64,000 nucleotides of DNA, taken from positions 62,001 through 126,000 of the forward strand of contig NZ_JAAHIH010000007.1 of the NCBI RefSeq assembly GCF_010671925.1. Reading direction: 5' to 3'. Below are positions 27,653-62,012 of the stretch, in pieces. Source of the stretch: Moorena sp. SIOASIH (GTDB lineage: Bacteria > Cyanobacteriota > Cyanobacteriia > Cyanobacteriales > Coleofasciculaceae). A model generated the notes under the pieces. The model was not told the DNA's origin and did not search any database. It was given only the letters and a program-made list of their open reading frames with translations. The position numbers and the translations under genes are program-made. Positions within the stretch are counted from its first letter, which is position 1; every line of letters starts with the position of its first letter.

Positions 27653-28315
27653 TTGAGCGGTAAGCTAATTGTTTTCGAGGGAGTGGAAGGCGGTGGTAAA
27701 ACTACCCAACTACAGCGATGCTCAAATTGGCTTCGAGCTGGTGGCTTACAAGACTGTCTAGGTACTGTTTGTTCGGGAAATCAAACAAGACCCCTTGTAG
27801 TCACAAGAGAACCGGGGGGAACATTATTAGGCGCTAAGGTTCGCCAACTGCTACTGGATAGAGATTCCTCACCCATTCACCCTCGGGCTGAACTTTTACT
27901 CTATGCTGCTGATCGGGCTGAACATGTTGAAGAGTTGATTAAGCCACAGTTGGTCAACGGAGCAATTATTTTATGCGATCGCTACACGGATTCCACAATT
28001 GCCTACCAGGGTTATGGGCGAGGTATTGACTTGAAATTGATTGAGCAGCTTAATCAAATTGCTACCGGTGGACTGGAAAGTGACCTCACCCTGTGGCTGG
28101 ATATTGATGTCGAAATTGGTCTGGAACGGGCGCGACAGCGGGGAACCGTTGACCGCATGGAGCAAGCTGACTTAGCATTTCACCGACGAGTGCAGCAGGG
28201 ATTTCAGCAGTTGTATCAACAAAATCCTGATCGGATTGTTCGGGTAGATGCTAGCTACAGTGAGGAGGAGGTGCATAATGCCATTCAGAAGATTTTGCGT
28301 GAACGGTTTAGCTGA
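27653..28315 (+). CDS. tmk: thymidylate kinase
   Basis: The enzyme phosphorylates dTMP to dTDP with ATP for DNA synthesis. The 220-aa protein has the P-loop FEGVEGGGKTTQ (residues 8-19), the DR(Y/F) motif CDRYTDSTIAYQGYGRG, and the lid region ERARQRGTVDRME. It starts at TTG 27653; GAGGAGG at 27641-27647 five bases upstream supports this start strongly, and no ATG fits. An insertion of about 15 residues between the first helix and TREPGGT (GLQDCLGTVCSGNQT) is slightly longer than usual. tmk is commonly next to holB in cyanobacteria; here an insertion sequence separates them. Confidence 0.96.
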   Translation: MSGKLIVFEGVEGGGKTTQLQRCSNWLRAGGLQDCLGTVCSGNQTRPLVVTREPGGTLLGAKVRQLLLDRDSSPIHPRAELLLYAADRAEHVEELIKPQLVNGAIILCDRYTDSTIAYQGYGRGIDLKLIEQLNQIATGGLESDLTLWLDIDVEIGLERARQRGTVDRMEQADLAFHRRVQQGFQQLYQQNPDRIVRVDASYSEEEVHNAIQKILRERFS

Positions 28316-28589: not shown

Positions 28590-29822
28590 ATGAGATCAGC
28601 CTATCAATACCGGTTACGCCTAACAAAAAAACAGGTAGCCAAAATCGACAAGTGGCTAGACATGTTGCGCTGTCAATATAATTACTTGCTAGCTGACAGG
28701 TTGAACGGGTATGAGCAAAATCGCTGTTCTATTAACTCTTGTCCGCTTACTTGTAATTTACCACATTTAAGGAATAACCCAGACTATTTTTCTCAGAAAA
28801 AGACACTCCCTGAATTAAAGAAAAGCAGACCGTGGTATGCTGACATACACTCTCAAGTCTTGCAAGACTGCGTAAAGAGGGTAGACCTGTCCTTTAAACG
28901 GTTACTAAAGGGAGATTGCAATGGGAATAGGAGCGGAAAACCAAGATTCAAGAGCAAAAACAGGTATCGCTCTTTTACTTTCCCCTCTTTGCCCAAAGAC
29001 CCAATTAGTGGTAAGAGCCTGACCCTGCCAAAATTTGGGAAGGTGAAAGTGATATATCACCGACCTATACCTGATGGGTTCAAAGTAAAGACTGCCACGA
29101 TTACCCGAAAAGCTGATGGTTACTACGTTACATTGTCGATTCAGGACGACTCTGTCCCAAATATTATCCCAATCGACAGTGTAGCCAATCCAGTTGGTAT
29201 AGACATGGGTCTTAAGTCTTTCCTGGCCAAGTCTGATGGGACTGAAGTACCAATTCCTCAGTACTATAGAAAAGCTCAGAAGAGACTTAAGAAAATACAG
29301 AAAGCTGTTAGCCGTTCCAAGAAAGGAAGCAATAACATAAAAAAGGCAATTTTAAAACTGGGTAAAGCTCACAAAAAGGTAGCTGATACTAGGAAAAATT
29401 TTCATTTTAAGACGGCGATTGATCTGCTAGATAATCATGATCTAGTAGCTCATGAAAAGCTCAATATAAAAGGTCTGGCCAAGACCAGAATGGCGAAATC
29501 AGTTTTAGATGCTGGTTGGGGGCAATTTCTGTCTATCTTGTCAGTCAAAGCCAAAAATGCTGGACTGATAACAAAAGCAGTGAATCCTCGCAACACCAGT
29601 CAAAACTGTTCCAATTGTGGAAAAAAGGTTCCAAAGAAATTAAAAGACCGCATTCATTCCTGTCCTCATTGCGGTTATGTGGAGGATAGGGATATAAATG
29701 CGGCAAAGAATATATTAAAGTTGGCGGTGGGGCATCCCGTCCGAAGTAAAGCTTGTCGAGCATCCGAACCGTTAGGTGGAGTTGGCAAGAAGCCTACACT
29801 GAACCTGATCAGGTCAGTGTAG
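28590..29822 (+). CDS. tnpB: TnpB, RNA-guided endonuclease of an IS200/IS605-family element
   Basis: The 410-aa protein is a Cas12 ancestor that cuts DNA guided by an RNA from the element's right end, favouring element retention. The RuvC catalytic set looks intact: D in PVGIDMGLKSFLA (about 205), E in LVAHEKLNIKGLA (about 289), and D in DRDINAAKN (about 369). A zinc ribbon CSNCGKK..CPHCG (about 340-365) lies between the last two. The N-terminus starts MRSAYQYRLRLTKKQ with the usual HTH. AGGAGAACTGCAAG precedes the ATG. The stop codon lies inside the right-end hairpin, as is usual where the guide RNA overlaps the 3' end of the gene. The length is normal. Confidence 0.95.
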   Translation: MRSAYQYRLRLTKKQVAKIDKWLDMLRCQYNYLLADRLNGYEQNRCSINSCPLTCNLPHLRNNPDYFSQKKTLPELKKSRPWYADIHSQVLQDCVKRVDLSFKRLLKGDCNGNRSGKPRFKSKNRYRSFTFPSLPKDPISGKSLTLPKFGKVKVIYHRPIPDGFKVKTATITRKADGYYVTLSIQDDSVPNIIPIDSVANPVGIDMGLKSFLAKSDGTEVPIPQYYRKAQKRLKKIQKAVSRSKKGSNNIKKAILKLGKAHKKVADTRKNFHFKTAIDLLDNHDLVAHEKLNIKGLAKTRMAKSVLDAGWGQFLSILSVKAKNAGLITKAVNPRNTSQNCSNCGKKVPKKLKDRIHSCPHCGYVEDRDINAAKNILKLAVGHPVRSKACRASEPLGGVGKKPTLNLIRSV

Positions 29823-29823
29823 G
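29793..29823 (+). ncRNA. probable 3' hairpin of the TnpB guide (omega/re) RNA
   Basis: The arms CCTACACTGA (29793-29802) and TCAGTGTAGG (29814-29823) are perfect, and the 11-base loop holds a second palindrome, CCTGATCAGG. It overlaps the tnpB stop codon. In known TnpB elements the omega RNA covers the tnpB 3' end, and its guide is read from the sequence just past the right end, which here is the start of holB. The RNA's 5' limit is not visible. Confidence 0.55.
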
Positions 29824-29836
29824 AGTATGTCACAAC

Positions 29837-30817
29837 ATGGTTCCAGGAGCGTTCGACTATATCCTAGGGCAAGACCAAGCGATCGCATTATTGCACGGAG
29901 CAATTACAACCAAGCGTATTGCCCCTGCCTACCTGTTTGCTGCTCCATCTGGGGTGGGGCGGAGTCTGGTAGCACGGGCTTTTATTGAACAGTTGTTTTG
30001 TCAAGGTATCCCAGCTGATGGGCAAGTCTCAATCAAAAAACGACTTATTCAGGGCAATCACCCGGATGTATTGTGGGTAGAGCCAACCTATCTGCATAAT
30101 GGTACACTGGTTACTGCTACAGAAGCTGTCCAAAAAGGAATTCAGCGTCAGGCACCCCCCCAAATTCGGTTGGAACAAATTCGGGAAATTGCTCGGTTCC
30201 TGAGTAATTCTCCTCTAGAAGCATCGCGCAAGGTGGTGGTACTAGAGCAGGCAGAAACTATGGCAGAGCCAGCAGCCAATGGTTTGCTGAAGACTCTCGA
30301 AGAACCGGGAAATGCTACGTTGATTGTGATCGCACCTAGCACTGAGTCTTTGTTGCCGACCCTAGTGTCTCGCTGTCAGCGGATTCCATTTTCTCGGCTG
30401 GGGCCCGAAACTATGACAACAGTGCTGCGGCAAACCGGTCATGAACAGATTTTACAGGAACCATCAGTACTCGCCATTGCCCAGGGAAGTCCGGGGGAAG
30501 CGATCGCTGCTTTTGAACAACTCCAAGCTATGCCCCCAAAGTTACTCACCCAACTTACCCAGTTACCCCACACATCCCGTCAAGCGTTGGAACTGGCAAA
30601 GGAAATCGACAAAAACCTGGATACCAACACTCAGCTTTGGTTAGTGAAGTATTTACAACACTGCTACTGGCAATCACACACTCAACCAGACATGATTAAA
30701 AAGCTAGAGCAAGCTCGGCGATACCTGCTCAGTTATGCTCAGCCGCGATTAGTTTGGGAGGTAACCCTGTTGGAATTGAGTTTTCTTGAAGAATCAAGGA
30801 TTAAGGATAAATTATAA
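29837..30817 (+). CDS. holB: DNA polymerase III delta-prime subunit
   Basis: A 326-aa clamp-loader subunit. FDYILGQDQAIALLHGAI, APSGVGRSLVARAFIEQLFC with Arg in place of the P-loop Lys (normal for delta-prime, which does not hydrolyse ATP), KVVVLEQAETMAEPAANGLLKTLEEPG (Walker B region) and PTLVSRCQRIPF (SRC sensor) are diagnostic. The ATG at 29837 (MVPGAFDY) is chosen. The same frame stays open up to 29753 inside tnpB, which is not expected to be translated. The TnpB element's right end lies about 13 bp before this ATG, so the element now supplies the 5' leader. Confidence 0.94.
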   Translation: MVPGAFDYILGQDQAIALLHGAITTKRIAPAYLFAAPSGVGRSLVARAFIEQLFCQGIPADGQVSIKKRLIQGNHPDVLWVEPTYLHNGTLVTATEAVQKGIQRQAPPQIRLEQIREIARFLSNSPLEASRKVVVLEQAETMAEPAANGLLKTLEEPGNATLIVIAPSTESLLPTLVSRCQRIPFSRLGPETMTTVLRQTGHEQILQEPSVLAIAQGSPGEAIAAFEQLQAMPPKLLTQLTQLPHTSRQALELAKEIDKNLDTNTQLWLVKYLQHCYWQSHTQPDMIKKLEQARRYLLSYAQPRLVWEVTLLELSFLEESRIKDKL

Positions 30818-37426: not shown

Positions 37427-38251
37427 TTGCCTATAAAACTTGGCATAATTGGTGGCGGTGTCATGGGAGAAGCCCTCCTATCCCGTCTACTTGCCCAACA
37501 ACTTTACCAGCCTGATCAGGTCTTGGTGAGTGAGCTGCTGGAGCAGCGGCGTGATGGTTTGGCGCAAAAATACGGCATAAGGGTCACTGCCAATAACCAA
37601 GCGGCAGCGGCAGCATCAGAGGTTTTGTTACTGGCAATTAAACCTCAGGTATTTGAAGCGGTAGCGGCAGAACTGGGAATGGGTAGAGGTGACAACGGTC
37701 ACAGCTTAGGAACGTTGCCAATGGTGATTTCAATTCTAGCTGGAGTGCCTCTGGAACGACTGGAAACCGCTTTTGCCTCCCAGCCAGTGATCCGGGCAAT
37801 GCCTAATACTCCTGCAACAGTTGGGGCGGGGATGACAGCGCTAGCGGCTGGAAAATGGGTTTCGCCTGATCAAATGGAGCAAGCAAAGACAATTTTTAGG
37901 GCTGTTGGTGAAGTAGTCGAGATTCCGGAACACCTGATGGATGCGGTGACCGGTTTATCTGGGTCAGGCCCAGCTTATGTGGCGATTTTGGTGGAAGCCC
38001 TAGCAGATGGGGGCGTAGCAGCTGGATTACCCAGAGCGATCGCATTGCAATTGGCACTCTCTACAGTATTGGGTACAGCCCAGCTATTGCAGGAAACTCA
38101 AATGCATCCAGCTCAATTGAAGGATAGGGTTACTAGTCCTGGGGGAACCACGATTGCTGCGATCGCTAAGTTGGAGAAGGCTGGTTTTCGCTCAGCTTTG
38201 ATTGAGGCGGTTTTGGGGTCTTATCAGCGTTCTCGGGAGTTGGGGGGTTGA
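37427..38251 (+). CDS. proC: pyrroline-5-carboxylate reductase
   Basis: The enzyme reduces 1-pyrroline-5-carboxylate to L-proline with NAD(P)H, the last step of proline synthesis. The 274-aa protein has KLGIIGGGVMGEALL (residues 4-18) as the Rossmann motif, VIRAMPNTPATVGAGMTAL and the proC signature region VTGLSGSGPAYVAILVEALADGGVAAGLPRAIA. The C-terminus LKDRVTSPGGTTIAAIAKLEKAGFRSALIEAV is complete. The start is TTG at 37427 with AGAGGTG upstream; no ATG fits the family N-terminus. It ends directly into a GGTTGAA heptamer array. Confidence 0.96.
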   Translation: MPIKLGIIGGGVMGEALLSRLLAQQLYQPDQVLVSELLEQRRDGLAQKYGIRVTANNQAAAAASEVLLLAIKPQVFEAVAAELGMGRGDNGHSLGTLPMVISILAGVPLERLETAFASQPVIRAMPNTPATVGAGMTALAAGKWVSPDQMEQAKTIFRAVGEVVEIPEHLMDAVTGLSGSGPAYVAILVEALADGGVAAGLPRAIALQLALSTVLGTAQLLQETQMHPAQLKDRVTSPGGTTIAAIAKLEKAGFRSALIEAVLGSYQRSRELGG

Positions 38252-38375
38252 AGGTTGAAGGTTGAAGGTTGGAGGTTGAAGGTTAAAGGTTGAAAGTTAA
38301 AGGTTGAAAGTTAAAGGTTGAAAGTTAAAGGTTGAAAGTTAAAGGTTGAAAGTTAAAAGTTGAAGGTTGAAGGTT
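38248..38375 (+). repeat. GGTTGAA heptamer array
   Basis: About 18 copies of a GGTTGAA/GGTTAAA/AGTTAAA heptamer run from the proC stop codon for roughly 128 bp. It replaces the natural 3' flank of proC. Confidence 0.85.
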
Positions 38376-38689
38376 GTTAAGCGTTGGCTTCCCTTGTAGG
38401 GTAGATTGAACATGGATCAGAACTGATTGATCATGTGAATCTTAAGATCCATTAGGCTAGGCCGTTGTTAGTTGGTCTTGGCTAACCCCATCTGCATCTG
38501 TAGTCCTATGGGGGTGTGATTTCAATGGGCAAAAAACTATTGTGGGCGTCATCTAGTTCTGTCATCTAGTTCTATAATGAATGGCAGCTAAAGGATTTAT
38601 GCCATTGGCCGCAATCGTTTAAAAGTACCGGATCTGAACTACAATAATCACAAAATATTCATAATTTAGTCTGAATGTAAATTTGTGGA

Positions 38690-38936
38690 CTCCTAGTAAA
38701 AGCCTTGGTAATTTCCGGCAAGACCCGGAAGTTATCTAACTAGGATGCAGGTTTAGGATTAGCTTCCTACGTTGATTTGGTCATGACACCCAGGGATGAA
38801 CTCCAGTCTCTGGCTCTGTAGCCAACCATTAAGGTCAAGGCAAAATGTGTGGTTGGCTTGACAAGCCTTTTCAACATTACCGTTCGCGTAGCGGGACGAA
38901 GTCCGGAACACGTTACCGATTTGAGATGCACTAAAA
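38690..38936 (+). ncRNA. candidate omega RNA of the adjacent IscB
   Basis: The 250 bp just before iscB are rich in nested stems. An outer pair, CCTAGT (38692-38697) and ACTAGG (38739-38744), encloses TTCCGG..CCGGAA (38713-38730). GGCT-CTGT-AGCC and GCCAACC..GGTTGGC follow (about 38810-38860), and a GCGTAGC-type palindrome comes before the ATG. IscB omega RNAs are encoded directly upstream of iscB, so position and structure both fit. The 5' end and guide segment are not defined. Confidence 0.6.
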
Positions 38937-40217
38937 ATGCCAAATTACGTATTTGTCATTGACACAAACAAACAGCCATTAAACCCCATATCCCCCAAAA
39001 AAGCACGACGTTTATTGGACAAAGGGAAAGCTGCGGTTTTTAGGATGTATCCATTTACGATCATCCTCAAGACTGCGATTCGGCAAAGCCGACGCTGCGC
39101 GAACGCAAATCCGACTATCTCGCCTTGTCAAATCAAGATAGATCCGGGTAGTAAGACCACTGGGTTTGCTCTAGTCCAAAACGACCAAGTCATTTGGGCA
39201 ATGGAGTTAGAACACAAAGGATCACTCATTAAGAAAAAACTAGAATCTAGAAGCGCCGTTAGACGTGGGAGACGCAACCGTAACACCCGTTACAGAAAGC
39301 CAAGGTTCCTTAATCGTAGGCGTCCTGAAGGTTGGATTGCTCCTAGCTTAGAGCATAGAGTCTTGACTACTGAAACCTGGGTTAAACGACTAATCAAGTT
39401 TTGTCCAGTCAATGAGATTGGGATTGAACGAGTTAAGTTTGATACCCAAAAAATGCAGAATCCTGAAGTTAATGGCGTCGAGTACCAACAAGGGGATCTA
39501 GCCGGGTATGAAGTGAGGGAATATTTGCTTGAGAAATGGGGAAGGGAGTGTGCCTATTGTAGCAAGCAAAATACTCCCCTACAGATTGAGCATATCCACC
39601 CAAAATCTAAGGGTGGGAGCGACCGAGTTAGTAATCTTTGTCTGGCTTGCGAGAAATGCAATCAGAAAAAAGGAAATAAACCTATAGAGGAATTCCTAAA
39701 AAAGAAACCAGACTTGTTGCGGAAGATCCTAGCCATTGCCAAACAACCATTAACAGATGCAGCGGCAGTGAATACAACTCGGAACAAGATAGTCAAAGTT
39801 CTTAAAGCTATAAAACCTGTAGTTACTGGTACAGGTGCTCAGACAAAATACAACCGGACTAGGTTGGGATTACCTAAGCAGCATTGGATTGATGCCGCTT
39901 GTGTCGGAGACATCAAAGACTTGGTGCTAAAGACGTCTCAACCGCTACTAGTAACCTGCAAGGGACAAGGAGGCAGACAAAAGGCTGCACTCAATAAATA
40001 TGGCTACCCCATCAGACACAACCCATTGAGGCCGATCAAGGGTTGGAGTACTGGCGATATTGCCAGACATCAAAAATTAGGGATAGGTAAAGTGACTCCC
40101 AGAAGCAAGGGCAGTTTTGGATTTACTCCATTAGGAGCGAAGGGCTACAAGAGTTGTAAACCTCAAGATATATTTGCCGTACACAGAAAAGATGGATATA
40201 TTTACAGCTTTTGCTGA
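38937..40217 (+). CDS. iscB: IscB, RNA-guided nuclease (Cas9 ancestor)
   Basis: The 426-aa protein is encoded by an IS200/IS605-related element and would cleave DNA guided by an omega RNA. An N-terminal PLMP-like domain (MPNYVFVIDTNKQPLNPISP) is followed by RuvC-I KIDPGSKTTGFAL (D about 68), an Arg-rich bridge helix RSAVRRGRRNRNTRYRKPR, RuvC-II EIGIERVKFD (E about 163), HNH CAYCSKQN..QIEHIHPKSKGG..SNLCLACEKCNQKKGN (about 205-245) and RuvC-III HWIDAACVG. All catalytic residues appear intact. Between PLMP and RuvC-I an in-frame insert RQSRRCANA is encoded by a dispersed palindromic repeat. No tnpA is nearby. Confidence 0.95.
   Translation: MPNYVFVIDTNKQPLNPISPKKARRLLDKGKAAVFRMYPFTIILKTAIRQSRRCANANPTISPCQIKIDPGSKTTGFALVQNDQVIWAMELEHKGSLIKKKLESRSAVRRGRRNRNTRYRKPRFLNRRRPEGWIAPSLEHRVLTTETWVKRLIKFCPVNEIGIERVKFDTQKMQNPEVNGVEYQQGDLAGYEVREYLLEKWGRECAYCSKQNTPLQIEHIHPKSKGGSDRVSNLCLACEKCNQKKGNKPIEEFLKKKPDLLRKILAIAKQPLTDAAAVNTTRNKIVKVLKAIKPVVTGTGAQTKYNRTRLGLPKQHWIDAACVGDIKDLVLKTSQPLLVTCKGQGGRQKAALNKYGYPIRHNPLRPIKGWSTGDIARHQKLGIGKVTPRSKGSFGFTPLGAKGYKSCKPQDIFAVHRKDGYIYSFC
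39076..39107 (+). repeat. dispersed palindromic repeat inserted in frame within iscB
   Basis: CGGCAAAGCCG next to GCTGCGCGAACGC forms two small palindromes and resembles, in reverse complement, the GCGTTCGC-GCAGCG/GCGTAGCG-TGGCC repeats at about 24985-25020, 38880-38910 and 48365-48400. Here it adds roughly nine codons without breaking the frame. Confidence 0.6.
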
Positions 40218-40283
40218 TATCTGCCGGATTTTACCTGGAAAAAATTCTCCTAAGCTTTCCTGCATCTACTTGATCACAGACAG

Positions 40284-41738
40284 ATGACAGAATCTTCAAT
40301 TCCGATTCGAGCCTTACCAAAAGCACGCCAACGTTCTCGACCCAATGGGTTGAAATGGTTTTCCTACATAAGTTTGGGGATTTTGAGCAATGCTGCTATT
40401 TTGGGTTTAGCTTTTTTTGTGCTCAAGCAAATCCCTCCAACTTACACCAGTAAGGCAGCAGCCATTATACCTGGTGTGGGTTCTCAAGGATCTGTTCAAC
40501 TCCCTGGAGTCGGTCAAGCTTCCTCCAATCCAGGTGAGAAATCTCCTTACGGATATCTTTTAAAGGTAGATCCACGAGAAAACTACCAGTATATCGCCAT
40601 GAGTGAAGTAGTTTTAAAGGAAGCTGCTGCTGCTGTTAATACCTCAGTCAAAGATTTTGAAGAGTTTGCCAAGCCAAGGGTTTATTTGGATAGAGGTACC
40701 ACTATCATAGAATTTGAAGCGGATGGCAAAAGCAAACTGGAAGCTCAGCGAAATACTCGGGCTTTTTATGAAGCGTTAGTCAAGCGGATTGATTACTTAA
40801 GAGCAGAAGAATCAGCTCGTCAGGATAACAAGACGTTGCTAGCGTTAGACTCTGCTAATAGTAACTTAAAAAACGCCCAAACAAAGCTTTCTCAATTCAA
40901 AAAGAAGTCACTGCTCAAAATTTCTGAACAAATCAAGAACCTTTCAGAAGAAGTAGAGAGGTTGCGAGTGCAGCGTGCTAATTTATTGGCTCAGCAGCAA
41001 GCGGCTACCTCTGGATTAAGGCAGCTAGAAGCTAACCTCAGGTTGTCAACTGACCAAGCAGCCGATGCTCTGATGCTTCAGGATGATGAAGTCTTTAAAA
41101 AACTTTGGCAAAACTATAGCGATATCAGCGCTAACCTAACGATACTTAATTCACAATGGACACCAAACAGCCCTCAGGTGATTAATCAGAAAGCTAAGAA
41201 GCAAGCGGCTCTTGAGGCATTACTTGCTCGTAGCCAACAGCTATTGGGCAAGGGGATGGATCTTCAACGTTTGGATAATCTTAATTTGGGCTTAGATGCC
41301 CAGACAGGTCGAGCAAATCTGGCACAATTGTTAATCAACCAGAGAGCTCAACAGCAAGGACTAACAGGTCAAGTTAACGCCTTGGCAGAACAAATTGCTC
41401 AGTTAGAGTCTAGACTTCAGACGTTGATTCAGGAGCAGTTAACCCTGGCTGAGCTTGAGCGAGAGGTGCAAATCTCCGAAGCTATATTTACGGCCAAGTC
41501 GGCTCAATTAAACGTGAATAAATCGGATCATGCTAGTGCTTATCCAACCCTGCAATTGTTAGTAGAGCCGAACTTACCGAAAGAACCTGTTGGTAATACC
41601 AAAAAAACGGTGATGCTGGGAGCTGTGGCGCTTTCCCTTTTAATGACAACTGGGCTGGTTATCCTGGCCTGGGAAAAACCAAGTTCTAAGACAGACGCTC
41701 CTAAAGATTCCACTCCGGTACTTCAACCTGAGTCTTAA
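40284..41738 (+). CDS. Wzz/GumC-type polysaccharide co-polymerase without kinase domain
   Basis: A 484-aa chain-length/co-polymerase protein. An N-terminal membrane helix (FSYISLGILSNAAILGLAFFVL, about residues 31-52) is followed by a Wzz domain (PPTYTSKAAAIIPGVG), an extended periplasmic coiled coil (about 185-400) and a second helix TVMLGAVALSLLMTTGLVILAW near the C-terminus. No Walker motifs follow, in contrast to the Wzc-like protein at 18954. It heads the second polysaccharide cluster, with the flippase and sulfotransferase genes after it. The IscB element lies 66 bp upstream and probably provides or disrupts its promoter region. Confidence 0.88.
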   Translation: MTESSIPIRALPKARQRSRPNGLKWFSYISLGILSNAAILGLAFFVLKQIPPTYTSKAAAIIPGVGSQGSVQLPGVGQASSNPGEKSPYGYLLKVDPRENYQYIAMSEVVLKEAAAAVNTSVKDFEEFAKPRVYLDRGTTIIEFEADGKSKLEAQRNTRAFYEALVKRIDYLRAEESARQDNKTLLALDSANSNLKNAQTKLSQFKKKSLLKISEQIKNLSEEVERLRVQRANLLAQQQAATSGLRQLEANLRLSTDQAADALMLQDDEVFKKLWQNYSDISANLTILNSQWTPNSPQVINQKAKKQAALEALLARSQQLLGKGMDLQRLDNLNLGLDAQTGRANLAQLLINQRAQQQGLTGQVNALAEQIAQLESRLQTLIQEQLTLAELEREVQISEAIFTAKSAQLNVNKSDHASAYPTLQLLVEPNLPKEPVGNTKKTVMLGAVALSLLMTTGLVILAWEKPSSKTDAPKDSTPVLQPES

Positions 41739-61636: not shown

Positions 61637-62012
61637 ATAATCGGCGTTGGTGAATCTTCTTTTGAATAGGAGTAGAGTGGGCATCCTGCCCGCCTGGGAA
61701 TATATTGAAACTGGCAAGATGCCAGTTCCACCAAGATGCCAGTTCCAGCAAGATGCCAGTTCCACCTCACTCTTAAAATCATTCCATTATTAAGCAACGC
61801 CGAATAATCAGAGACTGTTCAGAAAGTAGATATTAAAACAGTGATTAGTCCCTGACTATTGGTGGGTTACCGGAGATAGCTCCTACAGTCTCGTTGCCTA
61901 ACTTAACCGATGCCAGGAACTAAGCAAAGTTTAACAAACAGTTTCCAAGCTCCAAAATCCAACTTAAACTAGTAGAGGGGGGTGTTACCCATAGCCCCTC
62001 CAGCAGATACCA
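61637..62012. other. non-coding region with a 17-bp tandem repeat
   Basis: CAAGATGCCAGTTCCAC is repeated three times (61715-61765) after CTGGCAAGATGCCAG, so each unit also carries CTGG/CCAG inverted pieces. A GGGGGGTGTTACCC hairpin-like piece near 61978 resembles 48268. No gene is evident. Confidence 0.7.

Follow-up and report, generated by a model that had tools for sequence, protein, structure and literature searches.

An IscB element of Moorena with an upstream omega RNA and coupled CTG and CAG forms suggestive of a natural TAM switch

Results

A complete IscB gene in the window

The window, a 64,000-nucleotide stretch of DNA from Moorena sp. SIOASIH (positions 62,001 to 126,000 of contig NZ_JAAHIH010000007.1), contains a mobile element of about 1.57 kb on the + strand (38690-40261), within which an omega RNA (38690-38881) is followed by a 426-aa ORF (38937-40217, + strand). 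This ORF is a real, complete IscB. It scored 467.1 bits against NF040563 (NCBIfam guided_IscB), above the curated cut-off of 175, contained the Pfam domains RRXRR (residues 5-186) and HNH, and matched IscB chains in the PDB with a best E value of 5e-40. Moreover, the predicted structure (mean pLDDT 80) matched IscB and IsrB complexes (DtIsrB) over the full length, with Z scores of 21-22. The N-terminus aligned to the IscB chains, with PLNP replacing the PLMP of the N-terminal domain. The catalytic residues of RuvC I-III and the HNH domain (D69, E164, H219, H316, and D319) were kept, as were the Zn cysteines C205/C208 and C238/C241. Conservation was judged across 27 IscBs, from cyanobacteria to Bacillota, and all residues conserved among them are present in the open frame, in agreement with the intact RuvC and HNH motifs described in the initial annotation. 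The protein is 91% identical to that of another intact copy.

An in-frame 24-bp repeat (39080-39103) separates the N-terminal segment from RuvC-I and adds 8 residues, which form a low-confidence loop in the predicted structure. In a 16-copy alignment from the same genome, this repeat was present at that position in the window copy alone, and the insertion might lower the activity of the window IscB. Between the omega RNA and the ORF, a palindromic repeat of about 22 bp (38883-38904) was found, which occurs in 6 of the 16 copies. Repeats of this kind, palindromic and about 22-24 bp long, were seen in the window copy and in L015, L022, L025, and L031, at sites in the region of the omega RNA and, in frame, within the IscB ORF; they are similar to the small mobile repeats known from cyanobacteria (Elhai 2008, cited in PMC4390886).

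The omega RNA is supported by covariation

The omega RNA scaffold (HEARO RNA) comprises 192 bases directly upstream of the IscB ORF and begins at the left end of the element; in the own genome, this RNA and left end were found only beside IscB ORFs. At the gathering threshold, Rfam gave no match across the whole window. A scan by E value brought up HEARO (RF02033) over 134 bases (38748-38881) with 78.1 bits, narrowly missing the gathering score of 83, and the homology is clear at an E value of 1.8e-15 despite this sub-gathering score. A covariance model built from the copies (R1) scored 199 bits over 38690-38881, and both models recovered the structured RNA that had been suspected upstream of the gene. 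In addition, the copy-derived model detected the same RNA upstream of IscBs outside its training set and in 115 of 291 genomes of the order, indicating that the RNA is common in cyanobacteria.

Covariation across homologous loci, as expected of the proposed RNA, was found in two alignments. Compensatory changes were present at 21 of the 43 pairs predicted in an unfitted MAFFT alignment of 31 copies. A fitted alignment comprised 34 matches, 33 of them distinct; in it, 97.3% of cells paired and 35 of 50 pairs had changed on both sides, a number that none of 500 shuffles reached; pairing dropped to 31-45% when partner columns were slid by 1-3. A fitted alignment is biased toward its own structure, and the unfitted alignment, which agreed with it on covariation, and the copy-by-copy folds are the fairer tests. 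Folded alone, the window RNA had only a moderate advantage over shuffles (z = -2.9), and the case for the RNA therefore rests mainly on covariation.

The first stem, P1, is formed by TCCTAGT (38691-38697, + strand), whose first base is the W base that varies with the target and the C-terminal type, and ACTAGGA (38739-38745, + strand), and its outer pair is T-A in 20 copies and A-T in 11. P1 encloses a 12-bp hairpin (38707-38736; 38707-38718 with 38725-38736, + strand). This hairpin formed in 31 of 31 copies, each folded separately, and 8 of its 9 modelled pairs had changed on both sides in the fitted alignment. The MAFFT alignment misplaced it, and it was checked by per-copy folding and the fitted alignment. 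Among the stems originally proposed, CCTAGT/ACTAGG (38692-38697 with 38739-38744) corresponds to P1, which has one further pair (T38691-A38745), and TTCCGG/CCGGAA is the tip of the 12-bp stem; both of these and GCCAACC/GGTTGGC show compensatory changes in 31-34 copies. The proposed GGCT/AGCC stem was not upheld, since its GGC pairs in another conserved stem of the consensus, CCAGGGAU/GUCUCUGG.

Good omega RNA matches lacking a downstream IscB ORF were observed at L233, L234, and L238-L241, which are possible stand-alone omega RNAs. At L023 and L026, in both cases upstream of the ORF, and at L076, the omega RNA is interrupted by a sequence similar to the 3'-terminal part of a group II intron; the two halves at L076 lie at 386-502 and 2790-2945, about 2.3 kb apart.

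Insertion is precise and occurs at C(T/A)G

The ends of the insertion were fixed by comparison with three sister Moorena genomes, as had been suggested at the outset; all three carry the clean, uninterrupted empty site AAATTTGTGGACTGCATCTA. The CT common to both junctions leaves the ends ambiguous by 2 bases (38690-40259 to 38692-40261). The true right end is thus at about 40259-40261, and not at the stop codon (40217) where the initial annotation had closed the locus. There are 34 IscB loci in the own genome (9.94 Mb in 24 contigs). Several of the other copies carry stops, and each of the three same-genus genomes contains further copies. High IscB copy numbers per genome are already known. 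The same kind of ends was found in 15 copies of the own genome; several copies are recent insertions, and insertion is precise, at a C(T/A)G site.

In known IscB systems the guide sits 5' of the omega RNA, and the predicted guide was therefore assigned to the host sequence directly left of the element, TCTGAATGTAAATTTGTGGA (38670-38689, + strand). These bases are identical in the empty sites of the three sister genomes and are followed there by CTG. At the right junction of the window element, CTG (40260-40262, + strand) represents the rest of the target and the predicted TAM of the empty site. All 15 copies have G at this right-junction position, and all 15 share CT or CA between their two ends, a dinucleotide also found in the targets, as in IS607-like elements. 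Besides that of the window copy, the empty sites of twelve more copies from its group were identified. Copies that start with CT had CTG there, as seen in eight of them, and those that start with CA had CAG. One-base exceptions in relatives were GTG at the L002 site and CGG at the L013 site, and the sites of L004, L006, and L011 are less clean, their flanks being altered in relatives. The TAM-like consensus beyond CTG was weak, and promoter-like matches upstream, near the window element, were not clearly above chance.

The stretch 40218-40283 lies between the IscB ORF and the next ORF (40284-41738). The right end of the element falls about 22 bases short of the start codon of the latter, and the element therefore probably interrupts the leader of this gene. 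On the other side, an array of GGTTGAAGGTTGAAAGTTAAAGG-like repeats (38241-38377), which are found in many places in related genomes, lies downstream of the ORF at 37427-38251. The TnpB reported 9 kb away is real (28590-29822; Pfam OrfB_IS605 and Cas12f1-like TNB), at a distance of 9.1 kb. Its gene is situated between those for thymidylate kinase (27653-28315) and DNA polymerase III delta' (29753-30817), and the TnpB ORF overlaps the start of the latter. The IscB and TnpB found here are not the ancestors of Cas9 and Cas12, as initially worded, but modern proteins related to those ancestors.

A sister group inserts 5' of ATGA

A second IscB group in the own genome (L019-L022, L024, L025, L028, L030, and L031) is inserted in each case exactly 5' of ATGA, with empty sites seen for L019, L020, L021, L025, and L031. 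The ATG at the insertion starts an ORF of at least 101 aa in 8 of 9 cases, against a background of 45 of 235 ATGA. The right end of this group is GGGAGGCGGACAG or a similar sequence, which resembles a Shine-Dalgarno motif and lies about 8 bases upstream of the ATG. HEARO elements reportedly insert at ATGA/GTGA.

DNA ends and C-terminal type are coupled

The left-end base, its P1 partner, the right-end base, and the target base were concordant in all copies where they could be read. The left-end T or A has its pairing partner within the omega RNA, and columns 2 and 57 of the RNA alignment, which hold this pair, were the only ones that distinguished the CT and CA types. In the protein, 12 columns separated the two types, all of them within residues 372-411 and none among the first 371; codons 372-411 correspond to 40050-40169 (+ strand). 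The C-terminal type fitted the ends in 18-19 CT and 13 CA copies, and residues 1-355 did not follow them. A tree of residues 1-355 contained 9 label changes, at least 4 of them forced, and a tree of the first 1000 ORF bases contained 7, at least 3 of them forced; the C-terminal tree contained 1, with support of 100/98. The rule also held in copies outside its discovery set (L230, L231, L245, L247, L249, L095, and L096) and beyond Moorena, in Rivularia (CT) and in Calothrix and Xenococcaceae (CA). The right end was unreadable in L082, L086, L088, and L091, and the last of these also had no readable C-terminus.

The C-terminal TAM-interacting domain of IsrB reads the TAM, which is NTGA or NTG, and NTG in the tested cyanobacterial orthologues (PMC9581776). 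The C-terminal region of the window IscB, with residues 372-411, corresponds to this domain and would be the part that reads the TAM. Two sequence searches for the TAM-reading residues of DtIsrB with C-terminal pieces gave chance matches only. An end-to-end structural match (residue 426 to 346) places the region of DtIsrB R323 and Q326 inside the separating block, although this mapping is approximate.

Discussion

On the basis of its sequence and anatomy, the locus is very likely an IscB (OMEGA) mobile element with an omega RNA, a guide taken from the left flank, and a C(T/A)G TAM that would be read by the C-terminal domain. By analogy, the C(T/A)G at the site would be the TAM: insertion of the sister group just 5' of ATGA fits an NTGA TAM, and the same geometry would give a CTG/CAG TAM for the window type. 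In the mechanism that we propose, a transcript would begin in host sequence and enter the omega RNA, so that left-flank sequence forms a guide at its 5' end. Together with this RNA, IscB would cut sister chromosomes at the unoccupied site, where CTG follows the guide match, and the element would be restored at the cut by repair templated on the occupied copy. Self-cutting would be avoided, as the guide in the occupied site is followed by CTC, not CTG. These cutting and repair steps are drawn from known TnpB and IscB elements; the present analysis shows the anatomy. Transposition to new sites would depend on TnpA supplied in trans. A TnpA ORF, such as the Y1 TnpA of IS200/IS605, was found near none of 113 IscB loci, and a search for window-type ends near 35 TnpA genes yielded only short shared repeats and one flank match. 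The absence of a neighbouring TnpA is usual for IscB/HEARO (PMC9755519).

The second base of the TAM would be read by the C-terminal domain, with CTG-type and CAG-type copies each bearing DNA ends that match, and these ends would stay with the C-terminal part when copies exchange the protein body. It is likely that the left-end base and its omega RNA partner, the right end, the insertion site, and the C-terminal domain have switched jointly between CTG and CAG several times by domain exchange, while the nuclease body swaps freely, which would amount to a natural TAM switch.

Alternatively, the same element could be moved in trans by an IS607-like serine recombinase, with CT/CA as the crossover bases, so that the coupling arises from recombination and not from TAM reading. 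IS607 carries identical GG at both ends and in the target, without duplication (PMC6188088), the same dinucleotide is found at both junctions in 15 of 15 own copies and in the targets, and the genome has 29 resolvase-like genes. However, the IS607 elements checked in this genome use GG, no recombinase adjoins any of the IscB loci, and crossover bases leave unexplained why residues 372-411 track the dinucleotide; we regard this explanation as unlikely. The IS607 elements of the own genome were also considered as a partner and rejected, the three near-identical copies examined ending in GG.

Somewhat less probable again is that the link between ends and C-terminal part is one of inheritance only, in which two old lineages each keep one physical block and gene conversion mixes the middle. 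The C-terminus does adjoin the right end, and the C part shows a single tree split. The left-end base and its P1 partner, however, lie about 1.3 kb off, across the mixed part, yet they are concordant in every copy, and chance conversion should have yielded mismatched copies. That the window copy is a dead relic, its ORF open by chance, is the least probable explanation, for although it has the in-frame repeat insertion and several other copies have stops, every conserved catalytic residue is kept, the protein retains 91% identity to another intact copy, and none of the three same-genus genomes searched has the insertion, which is thus fairly recent.

IscB, a compact tool for editing, belongs to the family that gave rise to Cas9. 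If the proposed TAM switch is true, nature would already have altered the TAM of a small IscB by a clean domain swap, and matched protein pairs with a near-identical body and different TAMs would be available; how nuclease specificity and transposon ends stay in step would become directly testable. A literature search covering few subscription papers found no paper on coupled CTG/CAG forms or on the start-codon insertion of the sister group, which is weak evidence of novelty. The IscB, the omega RNA, and the usual lack of a neighbouring TnpA are already known (PMC9755519).

Compared with known systems, the element is like IscB/OMEGA (NF040563; OgeuIscB and TbaIscB) in its PLMP-like N-terminus, its RuvC split by bridge helix and HNH, its upstream omega RNA, and its location in a mobile element; it differs in the small size of the protein (426 aa), the short C-terminal domain, and the insertion at C(T/A)G. 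The HEARO RNA (RF02033) has the same multi-stem structure over 134 bases and the same position upstream of an HNH ORF, whereas the first stem and hairpin have diverged in the window RNA, and the ATGA/GTGA insertion said to characterize HEARO fits the sister group and not the window type. IsrB (DtIsrB and the cyanobacterial CwIsrB and DsIsrB; PMC9581776) shares the C-terminal TAM-interacting domain, the guide 5' of the RNA, and a comparable TAM (NTGA or NTG); IsrB has no HNH, and two TAM-like classes, CTG and CAG, occur within the single family of the window element. Finally, the element resembles IS607 (PMC6188088) in the identical 2 bases at both ends and in the target, with no long duplication, but has neither the serine recombinase nor the GG of that family.
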